A stretch of 40,097 nucleotides of DNA from positions 17,183 to 57,279 of the forward strand of contig PMBT01000111.1 in the NCBI GenBank assembly GCA_003153035.1, given 5' to 3'. A program made the position numbers and the translations under genes. Positions 4,081 through 7,933 of the stretch are shown here, one piece after another; the stretch's first letter is position 1, and each line of letters starts with the position of its first letter. The stretch comes from Opitutia bacterium (GTDB taxonomy: Bacteria; Verrucomicrobiota; Verrucomicrobiia; Opitutales; Opitutaceae). The notes beneath the pieces were generated by a model. That model searched no databases, was not told the origin of the DNA, and was given only the letters and a program-made list of their open reading frames with translations.

Positions 4081-4770
4081 ATGCCTGCCGCGCGTCAGAT
4101 CATCCTGATTGTCGAGGACGAGCCGCCGATCGCCGAGACCATGGTCTACGCGCTGCAGACGGAGGGGTTTGCGGCGCTTTGGAAGACCACCGGGCGCGAG
4201 GCGCTCGCCGTCCTGGCGGAGCAGGAGATCGCGCTGGTCGTGCTCGATGTGGGCCTGCCCGACATCAACGGCTTCGATCTCTGCCGTGAGATCCGCCGCC
4301 AGCGCAAGGTGCCCGTGATCTTCCTGACCGCCCGCAGCGGCGAGGTGGACCGTGTGGTTGGTCTCGAACTGGGCGGTGACGACTACATGACGAAGCCGTT
4401 CAGCCCGCGCGAGCTGACGGCCCGCGTGCGAGCGGTGCTGCGCCGGAGCAACGGGGAGGGCGAGGCGGCGCCGGTCTCCGCGGTCTGGCGGCATGACGAG
4501 GCCCGTTGCCGCATCAGCTATCGCGCCCGGCCGCTCGACCTAACGCGCAACGAATACCGGTTGCTGCGCACGCTGCTCGCGCAGCCGGGGCGGGTTTTCA
4601 GCCGCGACCAGTTGATGGAGGCGGCCTGGGAAGATCCCGGCGCCGCGCTCGACCGCACGGTGGACGCGCACATCAAGCTGCTCCGGGCCAAGCTGCGCGC
4701 AGTCGCCCCGGGTGCCGACCCGCTGGTTACGCACCGGGGGCTCGGTTATTCCCTACGGGAGGAGTCATGA
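4081..4770 (+). CDS. creB: Response regulator CreB (OmpR family)
   Basis: 229 residues from ATG 4081, exactly the length of Escherichia coli CreB; a GTG at 4057 would add eight residues with no match to the family. The receiver domain has the acidic pair in IVEDEPP, the phospho-acceptor Asp56 in LVVLDVGLPD, the Thr in FLTARS and the Lys in MTKPF. The C-terminal winged helix (~130-229) has the OmpR-family signatures LTRNEYRLLRTLL and VDAHIKLLRAKL, ending THRGLGYSL. It is phosphorylated by CreC and binds tandem TTCAC-type half sites (cre tags). The stop overlaps the creC start (ATGA). A matching operator lies after creC at 6215-6241. Confidence 0.92.
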   Translation: MPAARQIILIVEDEPPIAETMVYALQTEGFAALWKTTGREALAVLAEQEIALVVLDVGLPDINGFDLCREIRRQRKVPVIFLTARSGEVDRVVGLELGGDDYMTKPFSPRELTARVRAVLRRSNGEGEAAPVSAVWRHDEARCRISYRARPLDLTRNEYRLLRTLLAQPGRVFSRDQLMEAAWEDPGAALDRTVDAHIKLLRAKLRAVAPGADPLVTHRGLGYSLREES

Positions 4771-6200
4771 GCCTGCGGCTGCGCCTGCTGGTCCTGTTGC
4801 TGGCAATCTACGGCGCGGGCGGATTCTTGCTCACCCGGTGGGCGCTCAACCAGGTGAGACCGCGGTATCTCGAGTCGATGGAGGAATCGTTGGTCGACAC
4901 CTCGGTGCTGCTGGCCTCGGTGCTGGAGACTCAATCCCCAGCCGGCGGGGTGAACGGCGAGATGCTGCGGCAGGCCTTTGCGGCCTCGGGGCAGCATGAG
5001 TTCGAGGCGAAGATTTTTTCGCTGCGCAAGACCGCGATCGACCTGCGCGTCTACGTGACGGACGACCGGGGCCGCGTGGTGTTCGACTCCACTGGCCGGA
5101 GCGAAGGCCAGGATTTCTCCCGGTGGAACGATGTCCGCCGCACGCTGCTCGGCCAATACGGAGCCCGCTCGACCCGTGACATCGCCGCCAACGACGAAAC
5201 CCAGGTGATCTACGTGGCCGCCCCGGTGCGCCAGGCTGGCCGGATCGTGGGCGTGCTGTCAGTGGGCAAGCCGACGCATGGCATCAACGCCCTCGTCGCC
5301 GTGGCCAAGCGCAGGATTCTCCTGGGTGCCGTCCTCGGCGGCGTCGTGCTGCTGCTCGTCATGCTGCTGGCCGCCTCGTGGGTCATCGCGCCGCTCGAGC
5401 GGCTGACCGACTATGCCCGGGCGGTGCGCGACCGCCGGCCGGCCGTGCGGCCGCAACTTCCCGGCCGCACACTGCGCGACCTGGGCACGGCTTTTGAGGA
5501 GATGCGCGACGCCCTCGAAGGCCGTCAACAGGTCGAGCGCTACACGCAAGCGCTCGCCCATGAAGTGAAGGCGCCGCTTGCGGCGATCCGCGGCGCGGCG
5601 GAACTGCTGGGGGAGGAGATGCCGGAGGAACAGCGGAGGAAATTCCTGGGCAACATCCGGAGCGAGGCGGAGCGCATCCAGCAGATCGTCGACCGGTTGC
5701 TGGAGATGTCGTCGCTCGAGGCGCGCAAGACGCTGGGCCGGACAGAGCGGATCGAGGTCTCCGCGTTGCTGGCCGAGGCCGCCGCGGCGTTGCGGCCGGC
5801 GTTTGAAGCGGGGCGGGTGGCCCTGGCCGTTGCTGGCGGGACGGGACTCTGGCTGCGCGGGGAACGCGTGTTGCTGCGCGAGGCGCTGGTCAACCTCCTC
5901 CAGAATGCGCTCGATTTTGTCCCGGCGGGCGGAACGGTGACGCTGCGTGCAGAAGCGGCGTCGGCCCGCGTGGCCCTCGTGGTTGAAGACACCGGCCCGG
6001 GTGTGCCCGACTTCGCGTTGCCTCGGGTGTTCGAGCGTTTTTACTCGCTGCCCAGGCCCCGATCCGGTCGCAAAAGCACCGGACTGGGGCTGAGCCTGGT
6101 CCGCGAGATCGCCCATCTTCATGGCGGAGAGGTCGAATTGGCGAATCGGCCGGAAGGCGGCGCGCGGGCGACGCTGAGCGCGCCGCTTGATCAGACCTGA
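4767..6200 (+). CDS. creC: Sensor histidine kinase CreC
   Basis: 477 residues, starting inside the creB stop. A first membrane helix (LRLRLLVLLLAIYGAGGFLL) is followed by a periplasmic sensor domain with the CreC-specific stretches VFDSTGRSEGQDFSRWND and GQYGARST. A second helix (ILLGAVLGGVVLLLVMLL, about residue 190) and a HAMP linker come next. His265 in ALAHEVKAPLAAIRGAAELL is the phosphorylation site. The ATPase domain has LVNLLQNALDF (N box), EDTGPGVPD (G1), FERFYSLPR (F box) and STGLGLSLVREIA (G2). It phosphorylates CreB in response to metabolic or envelope signals. The match to E. coli CreC runs along the whole protein. Confidence 0.93.
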   Translation: MSLRLRLLVLLLAIYGAGGFLLTRWALNQVRPRYLESMEESLVDTSVLLASVLETQSPAGGVNGEMLRQAFAASGQHEFEAKIFSLRKTAIDLRVYVTDDRGRVVFDSTGRSEGQDFSRWNDVRRTLLGQYGARSTRDIAANDETQVIYVAAPVRQAGRIVGVLSVGKPTHGINALVAVAKRRILLGAVLGGVVLLLVMLLAASWVIAPLERLTDYARAVRDRRPAVRPQLPGRTLRDLGTAFEEMRDALEGRQQVERYTQALAHEVKAPLAAIRGAAELLGEEMPEEQRRKFLGNIRSEAERIQQIVDRLLEMSSLEARKTLGRTERIEVSALLAEAAAALRPAFEAGRVALAVAGGTGLWLRGERVLLREALVNLLQNALDFVPAGGTVTLRAEAASARVALVVEDTGPGVPDFALPRVFERFYSLPRPRSGRKSTGLGLSLVREIAHLHGGEVELANRPEGGARATLSAPLDQT

Positions 6201-6214
6201 TATTTCTCGCCGTT

Positions 6215-6241
6215 TTCATCCGGCGTTCACACTGGCTTCAT
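6215..6241 (+). promoter_or_regulatory. Triple cre-tag-like CreB operator
   Basis: Three direct half sites lie at exact 11-base spacing: TTCAT (6215-6219), TTCAC (6226-6230) and TTCAT (6237-6241), each separated by 6 bases. The E. coli cre tag is TTCAC-N6-TTCAC, and CreB controls creD through such sites. This one sits just after creC and before the small gene and creD, so it probably lets phosphorylated CreB drive the downstream pair. It also argues against a coding start at 6240, which would lie inside the operator. Confidence 0.7.
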
Positions 6242-6263
6242 GGGGATCGGCCAGAGTGAACGC

Positions 6264-6521
6264 ATGACTTCGATACCTGTTTCCGACCGCCGTTGGTCAT
6301 GGTTCAAGCGCGCCGGCTGGTTTTATCGCCCGGTGACCTTGGCCGGCCTGTTCGCCACGCTCCTGCCGCTGGCGCTCTGCCTTAACGTGTTCATTGCCGT
6401 CGATCGCCACTCGCATTCGGCGACCGATACGCTTTACGGCGTCTATCCATTCTTCATGACCACGTTCCTGCTGTGGTCGTGGGTGGCGGATCGGACCGCG
6501 GGAGAAAGGGGAGCGCCATGA
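6264..6521 (+). CDS. Small membrane protein inserted in the cre operon
   Basis: 85 residues from ATG 6264 (MTSIPVSD); an ATG at 6240 overlaps the operator. Features are a Trp/Arg-rich start (RRWSWFKRAGWFYRPV), a helix LAGLFATLLPLALCLNVFIAV, the polar segment DRHSHSATDTLYGVYPF and a second helix FFMTTFLLWSWVA. I recall similar small membrane proteins in other genomes but know no function. Its stop overlaps the creD start (ATGA), so the two are translationally coupled. A role as a small partner or modulator of CreD is plausible but unproven. E. coli has no such gene between creC and creD. Confidence 0.65.
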   Translation: MTSIPVSDRRWSWFKRAGWFYRPVTLAGLFATLLPLALCLNVFIAVDRHSHSATDTLYGVYPFFMTTFLLWSWVADRTAGERGAP

Positions 6522-7933
6522 ACCCCCCGGTGCCGCCCGCGATCGAAATGCCCGCCCGCCGTCGCCATTCGCCGTTTCTCAAGATCGCCGGCATTTGTGG
6601 ATTGATCCTACTCCTGCAGATTCCGCTGTTCCTGACGGACGGCGTTCTAGTCGAGCGACGGGGCTATCAGCGGCAGGCGACCGCGGAAATCGCCGGCATC
6701 TGGGGTGCGGACCAGCGGGTGACTGGGCCGGTGCTGGCCATTCCCTATGCCTACCCAACCCAGGTGATTCGTTCCAAGGTCGTCGCCGGAAAGGTCGTGC
6801 AGGTGGAGGAGACGGACCTCGCGACCGCCACGGCCTATTTTCTGCCGGAGACGCTGACCGCGGGCGGGCCGGTGGAGCCTGAGGTGCGGCACCGTGGCAT
6901 CTACGACGTGGTCGTCTACACCACCCGTCTGCGGCTGACGGGGCATTTCCGGCCTGATTTTTCCGCCGCCGGCATCGCCGTGGAACGCATCGACTGGCAG
7001 AAGGCGCGGGTGCTGCTGGGCGTCTCCGATTTGCGGGGCGTGCGCTCCGTGTCCCCGCTCCAGTTCGCCGACAGCAAAGCCTGTCCCTTCGAGTCGGCCG
7101 ACAGCACGGCCGGCGAGTTTCTGCCGCTGGTTGCCAGGGTCGAGAATGCCGCCGCGGACACCCGGCTGGAGTTTGCCTTCGAGGTGGCATTGCAGGGCAG
7201 CGAGCGACTCCAAATCGCTCCGGTCGGCAAGGTCACCACGGTTGCGCTCAGCTCATCTTGGCCGGATCCCTCCTTTGGCGGAGCCTGCCTGCCCGTGAAA
7301 CGGAGCGTTTCCTCCGATGGTTTCAAGGCGGAGTGGGAGACCTCGCATTTCAGCCACGGCTTTCCGCAGAGCTGGACCAGCCGCCTGATCAATTCCCCGG
7401 AGATGTTGCGAAAAATCGACGCGGCGTGTTTCGGCGTGACCTTCGCGCAGCCGGTGGATGGCTACCGGCTCGCCGAACGCGCGGAAAAATACGGCCTGCT
7501 GTTTTTCGTGCTGGTTTTCGCCATGTTCTTTCTGTTCGAGGTGACGGCGGCGCTGCGCATTCATCCGCTGCAATATGCCCTGGTCGGCGCAGCGCTGTGC
7601 CTGTTCTTCCTCGGGTTTCTTGCGCTGTCGGAGCTCATGGCCCCGGGCCTGGCGTATGGCGCGGCGGCGGCGGCGTGCACCGCCCTCGTGTCGCTCTACG
7701 CCTGGAGCTTCCTCCGCACCGGCCTGCGCACGCTGATCATCGGCGGGGGGCTGTCCGCGACCTACGGCTATCTCTATTTCGTCATCCAGTCCCAGGACTA
7801 CGCGCTCGTGGCGGGCTCGGCCGCGCTGTTTGCGTTGCTCGCGCTCGTGATGTTCTGCACCCGGCGCATCAACTGGTACACGCTCGACGCGAACCCGAGT
7901 GCGCCGAGACCGGTGCCCGCCGCGCAAACCTAG
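6518..7933 (+). CDS. creD: Inner membrane protein CreD
   Basis: 471 residues (E. coli CreD is about 450). An N-terminal helix KIAGICGLILLLQIPLFLT is followed by a periplasmic domain with the CreD motifs VERRGYQRQATAEIAGIWG, TGPVLAIPY, TATAYFLPETL and RHRGIYDVVVYTTRLRLTG. HFSHGFPQSW and GVTFAQPVDGYRLAERAEKYGLLF lead into a C-terminal block of about five helices, with HPLQYALVGAALCLFFLGFLALSE. CreD is the main target of CreBC; its loss or overproduction alters envelope integrity and beta-lactam or colicin tolerance in enterobacteria. The biochemical function is unknown. Translation is coupled to the small upstream gene. Confidence 0.92.
   Translation: MNPPVPPAIEMPARRRHSPFLKIAGICGLILLLQIPLFLTDGVLVERRGYQRQATAEIAGIWGADQRVTGPVLAIPYAYPTQVIRSKVVAGKVVQVEETDLATATAYFLPETLTAGGPVEPEVRHRGIYDVVVYTTRLRLTGHFRPDFSAAGIAVERIDWQKARVLLGVSDLRGVRSVSPLQFADSKACPFESADSTAGEFLPLVARVENAAADTRLEFAFEVALQGSERLQIAPVGKVTTVALSSSWPDPSFGGACLPVKRSVSSDGFKAEWETSHFSHGFPQSWTSRLINSPEMLRKIDAACFGVTFAQPVDGYRLAERAEKYGLLFFVLVFAMFFLFEVTAALRIHPLQYALVGAALCLFFLGFLALSELMAPGLAYGAAAAACTALVSLYAWSFLRTGLRTLIIGGGLSATYGYLYFVIQSQDYALVAGSAALFALLALVMFCTRRINWYTLDANPSAPRPVPAAQT

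Follow-up and report, generated by a model that had tools for sequence, protein, structure and literature searches.

A predicted CreB-responsive, leaderless creD promoter and an optional small membrane protein gene in Opitutaceae

A separate creD promoter carrying a cre/blr-tag has already been reported for E. coli and S. maltophilia (PMC4689548), and control of creD by its own CreB promoter is known in kind. The cre/blr-tag itself has been published as TTCACnnnnnnTTCAC (PMC3660660) and is bound by CreB in vitro (PMC3962086). In E. coli K-12, TTCAC half-sites with an 11-bp period are located in the last part of creC and in the gap before creD, two of them perfect and a third degenerate, together with a CATAGT -10 element and a leader containing the ribosome-binding site AAGGAG, which leaves the creD ATG 55 nt from the third half-site; no small gene is found between creC and creD. 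In S. maltophilia, creD likewise has a separate promoter, whose tag TTCACACTCGCTTCAA spans -80 to -65 relative to the start codon within the short gap between creC and creD, and an extra gene, hp136, lies downstream of creD. Furthermore, CreBC lowers creD expression in this species, and the loss of creD triggers a sigma-E envelope response (PMC4689548). Outside the Cre systems proper, BlrAB and the blr-tag of Aeromonas drive beta-lactamase genes (PMC3660660).

The stretch of DNA analyzed here, 40,097 nucleotides from an Opitutia bacterium of the family Opitutaceae (hereafter, the window), carries creB, creC, and creD in the same order as E. coli. To our knowledge, the Cre regulon has not been studied in this bacterial group. 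All three genes are on the forward strand and exceed the NCBIfam equivalog cut-offs: the response regulator gene creB (4081..4770, 229 aa; NF008296, 324 bits versus a cut-off of 273), the sensor histidine kinase gene creC (4767..6200, 477 aa; NF008312, 572 versus 356 bits), and a full-length creD (6518..7933, 471 aa; 450 versus 275 bits), which also matches Pfam PF06123 with 450 bits (2–428 of 428). CreB is 53% identical to its E. coli counterpart, with DRTVDxHIKxLRAKLR in the DNA-binding region unchanged; the stretch expected to contact DNA is nearly unchanged as a whole. For comparison, 252 genomes from the window's family were searched for CreD (PF06123), which is present in 102 of them, although it is absent from all five genus-mates sampled, and 97 creD loci were collected, nearly all of them from this family; many genomes in the sample are metagenome assemblies.

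The original prediction for this locus, made by reading the window on its own, described three TTCAT/TTCAC half-sites that match the cre tag at 11-bp spacing between creC and a small membrane protein gene. These half-sites were confirmed as TTCAT, TTCAC, and TTCAT at positions 6215, 6226, and 6237, spaced by exactly 11 bp, and thereby form an operator TTCAT-N6-TTCAC-N6-TTCAT at 6215..6241 on the forward strand, i.e., direct repeats of the TTCACnnnnnnTTCAC type upstream of the gene to be regulated. The exact pattern TTCAY-N6-TTCAY-N6-TTCAY occurs only here, both within the 40-kb window (both strands) and within the 4.0-Mb assembly, for which about 0.004 copies are expected from base composition. 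Conservation in relatives, which the original prediction had named as a test, was pronounced: within up to 420 bp upstream of creD, an exact triplet with period 11 was found in 76 of the 97 loci, and triplets with periods of 8–10 or 12–16 in none of them. Moreover, scanning 80 genomes of the family with the pattern gave 108 matches as opposed to 4 for a reversed control pattern, and creC adjoins the operator in most loci. Half-site pairs with two mismatches were discarded as noise (22 found versus 20 expected), and weight is placed only on the exact triplet and its conservation.

The surroundings of the operator were examined by aligning 85 promoters on the last half-site, using offsets set by script under fixed rules; the remaining 12 of the 97 loci were dropped, several of them being truncated or devoid of an operator. 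The resulting logo comprises, in this order, a weak fourth half-site (TTCnn), CGAW, the TTCAY-N6-TTCAY-N6-TTCAY triplet, ten unspecific bases, a YANNNT hexamer, and the start codon. In the window, the fourth half-site is represented by a degenerate and weaker TTCTC (6204..6208, forward strand), at which TTC is kept in 78–80 of 85 relatives, and the hexamer by a -10-like CAGAGT (6252..6257, forward strand), 10 bp after the last half-site. With A at position 2 in 82 and T at position 6 in 81 of the 85 promoters, the hexamer is strongly conserved, and since it played no part in the choice of sites, this conservation constitutes independent evidence. A reading of the hexamer as a Shine-Dalgarno sequence was considered, as G prevails at its third position, but the letters that are conserved, A2 and T6, fit a -10 element and not AGGAG. 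In 79 of the 85 promoters, the distance from the first base of the last half-site to the start codon is 27 nt (57 loci) or 28 nt (22), a spacing that is partly due to selection, as a start codon at 26–29 nt was a criterion for including a site.

In the window, the ATG at 6264 follows the first base of the last half-site by 27 nt and is most likely the start of the small gene, because the promoter spacing then matches that of the relatives, while the upstream ATG at 6240 overlaps the last half-site and would break the 27-nt spacing common to them. Judged by this spacing alone, transcription is predicted to start at the A of the ATG (6264, forward strand), and a leaderless mRNA beginning directly on the start codon is likely. 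Counted from this predicted start, the operator occupies the place of a -35 element, with the hexamer at -12 to -7. We consider it highly probable that the conserved arrangement represents an operator combined with a promoter.

Compared with E. coli, three to four half-sites are present here instead of two perfect and one degenerate, and the -10 elements agree in their distance to within 1 bp; however, the start codon follows at 27 nt rather than 55 nt, and no leader is predicted. The original prediction had contrasted the locus with E. coli, where creD follows creC directly; this is correct with regard to gene order, but cre half-sites are found there as well. S. maltophilia differs in having one half-site pair rather than a triplet and in the position of its extra gene, which lies downstream of creD and not between creC and creD. 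The Aeromonas blr-tag was compared in half-site consensus and spacing, both of which are the same as here. A literature search for leaderless transcripts in Verrucomicrobia returned nothing on point, and a leaderless promoter of this kind, with its three to four half-sites, appears, as far as we could find, to be a new variant.

The position of the operator supports the view that its promoter serves the gene directly downstream, which is creD itself in most relatives and the small gene together with creD in the window. That phosphorylated CreB raises the expression of the small protein and CreD separately from CreBC was likewise part of the original prediction. A conserved CreB-type operator indeed lies in the promoter of the downstream gene, and separate control is likely because creBC lacks such a triplet, the one described being unique in the genome; raised expression remains at the level of a deduction. 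More generally, we infer that CreB is the binder, that it activates rather than represses, and that the small protein and CreD share a role, although the sign of control is uncertain by analogy to S. maltophilia, where CreBC acts negatively on creD.

The small gene (6264..6521, forward strand) encodes a membrane protein of 85 aa, which is supported by homologues, by dN/dS, and by an AlphaFold model with a pLDDT of 86. Two helices and translational coupling to creD had been anticipated correctly; the model places the transmembrane (TM) helices at residues 26–47 and 53–78, connected by a DRHSHS loop, and adds an N-terminal beta-hairpin (residues 14–23), and the coupling consists of an ATGA overlap with creD, which is present in all five intact copies of the gene. 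The positive-inside rule predicts a periplasmic location for this loop, in which D-R-H-S-H-S is conserved. Pairs within the family gave dN/dS values of approximately 0.1–0.45, which are rough given high dS but indicate that the small protein is under purifying selection. Relatives with about 40–57% identity were found in Acidobacteriota, Bacteroidota, and Burkholderiales, and alignments of 8 and 15 members together with the model revealed the motifs WFKxxGW and DRxSHSxSDTLY as well as the two TM helices as common features. Therefore, the small protein represents a real, unnamed family, even though it had no significant match in Pfam, NCBIfam, or PHROGs, and the best match among PDB folds was no better than E = 1.

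Across the 97 loci, the small gene is intact in five, namely the window, L109 (G374), L110 (G169), L064 (G457), and L086 (G602), and always at the 27-nt position. In 73 loci, creD itself starts directly behind the same promoter, without a small gene. In L066 (G458), the small protein has been cut to 40 residues (ORF 1428–1550, in creD orientation) by the loss of internal sequence between two GGATC(A/G)CGTC stretches that resemble each other, with an intact mini-creD (see below) behind it, and in L101 (G525) the slot between creC and creD is filled by an unrelated protein of 97 residues with three TM helices (1182–1475). L090 contains an ORF of 21 aa in the slot, and the ATGA coupling is retained even by the 40-aa and 21-aa ORFs. 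The role suggested for the small protein, a missing part of CreD function, thus found no support, being contradicted by the 73 loci without the gene, its disruption in L066, and its replacement in L101. It should be noted that the three-TM slot protein, which has no Pfam family above the cut-off, carries a DEGTxAHxxQL motif, and that L112, from an acidobacterium, has a seemingly similar protein (330–647) in front of a weak CreD relative.

In wider sampling, the association with creD varies. When 387 genomes of the phylum were searched with a family profile, all three matches were located in a cre operon. Adjacency in other phyla, which the original reading had suggested looking for and which was judged within flanks of 1.5–4 kb, was found in two Bacteroidota genomes, with the small gene after creD in L115 and before creD in L127. 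With 70% identity between them, these two proteins may go back to a single origin. Most relatives in other groups do not adjoin creD: among the Bacteroidota, Acidobacteriota, and Pseudomonadota sampled, about a dozen further loci of the small family lie away from it; such solitary relatives in Bacteroidota, Acidobacteriota, and Roseateles share WFKxxGW and DRHSHSxSDTLYG at about 40–57% identity and, unlike the small gene of the window, are mostly unlinked to creD. An additional 26% match from the first search for relatives (L002, G013) was rejected, being missed by the profile and not near creD. In the Bacteroidota loci L118 and L119 (L117 is similar), a divergent relative comes third, after the gene for an ECF sigma factor and that for an unnamed membrane protein, which may be an anti-sigma factor. 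Taken together, it seems fair to conclude that the link between the small gene and creD is recurrent but loose, and the small gene is best read as a putative accessory in a swappable slot, rather than as a missing part of CreD.

CreD itself occurs in two forms, with 49 of the 97 loci encoding full CreD and 43 a mini-CreD, mostly of 205 to 244 residues. In mini-CreD, roughly residues 72 to 313 are missing, with the helix at the N-terminus and the membrane helices at the C-terminus being retained; in the AlphaFold model of the window CreD, which consists of an N-terminal helix, a beta-rich domain (66–308), and C-terminal membrane helices, the missing segment corresponds to the beta-rich domain. 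The shortened form, examples of which are L110, L096, and L014, is not an assembly fault, as it is also encoded in the single-contig genomes G169 and G319. In a tree built from the C-terminal part common to both forms, mini-CreD is a single clade (SH-aLRT 100), but on the CreC tree the form changes 11 times, and a constraint that keeps the mini loci together there was rejected (AU p = 0.0046); the two trees were built quickly and are modestly supported. The small gene, for which the CreD tree implies five changes of state and the CreC tree six, is found with both mini and full CreD and tracks neither.

The simplest reading of these trees is that creD cassettes may have been exchanged behind a fixed creBC and promoter. 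A broader version, which we put forward only tentatively, would have the cre operator as the fixed edge of an exchangeable cassette, with full CreD, mini-CreD, and different small membrane proteins changing places among lineages behind the same leaderless CreB promoter. In that case, the core that does the work would be the membrane part of CreD, its periplasmic domain would be dispensable or replaceable, and the small proteins would tune or replace the input of this domain. The natural variants with and without the small partner and the periplasmic domain constitute ready-made experiments on the working part of CreD.

For the window, we propose that phosphorylated CreB would activate the promoter through three good and one weak half-sites, the 11-bp direct repeats of which would replace a -35 element, and that transcription would begin on the start codon to yield a leaderless mRNA. 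With the small gene directly behind this promoter and translationally coupled to creD, CreB activation would produce the small protein and CreD together, beyond any read-through from creBC. The small protein would most likely act in the inner membrane under the same stress as CreD, which would not depend on it. This account as a whole, a CreB-activated leaderless creD promoter with an optional small accessory protein, is in our judgment fairly likely, and that the small protein serves as an accessory in the Cre envelope response is slightly more likely than not.

The small gene could also be a passenger, i.e., an unrelated membrane protein gene in an insertion-tolerant spot behind a strong regulated promoter and without a tie to CreD. 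The occupation of the same slot by the three-helix protein of L101, the 40-aa remnant of L066, and the 21-aa ORF of L090 is consistent with this, as is the solitary or ECF-sigma-linked occurrence of most relatives in other phyla; however, the two gene orders next to creD in Bacteroidota, the confinement of all profile matches in the phylum sample to the cre slot, and long-term purifying selection speak for a tie, leaving the passenger possible but doubtful. It is unlikely that the ORF serves mainly as a translated leader that couples creD to the leaderless start, with its length and identity being minor: although even the 40-aa and 21-aa ORFs keep the ATGA coupling, full-length copies maintain their amino-acid sequence, as indicated by the dN/dS values, and most relatives have no leader ORF at all. 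The operon position, the ATGA coupling, and the adjacency to creD in two phyla would also suit an obligate partner of CreD or a missing CreD subunit, but creD starts at the same promoter without the small gene in 73 of 97 loci, it stays intact where the small gene is broken (L066), and the creABCD locus of E. coli has no such gene. An obligate partnership is largely refuted for the family and quite improbable overall.

Turning from the small gene to the operator, PhoB boxes also consist of 11-bp direct repeats located about 10 bp before a -10 element. These shared features, as well as the occurrence of the motif before other genes in genomes without creD, would fit the use of the site by PhoB or another OmpR-family regulator in place of CreB. 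Against this, the half-sites match the CreB tag, including the one at E. coli creD, and creC adjoins the site in most loci; CTGTCAT-type repeats and phosphate genes, as expected for PhoB, were not found, since the half-sites are TTCAY and the targets examined are creD, a VIT/VWA-domain protein, and membrane proteins. Recognition by such a regulator is very unlikely, and CreB is retained as the presumed binder.

With CreB in this role, the 85-locus promoter logo provides a precise and testable definition of the Cre regulon that also predicts the start of the transcript. The same promoter type was found before genes for a VIT/VWA-domain protein or a 187-aa membrane protein (L148, L150, and L139; L143 and L154), the downstream protein in L148 matching Pfam PF08487, and some of these relatives have no creD. 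Both are candidates for further members of the Cre regulon. In addition, YceI-like genes in L131 and L156 have TTCAY triplets that are preceded by inverted ATGAA half-sites, an arrangement that looks like a different operator.
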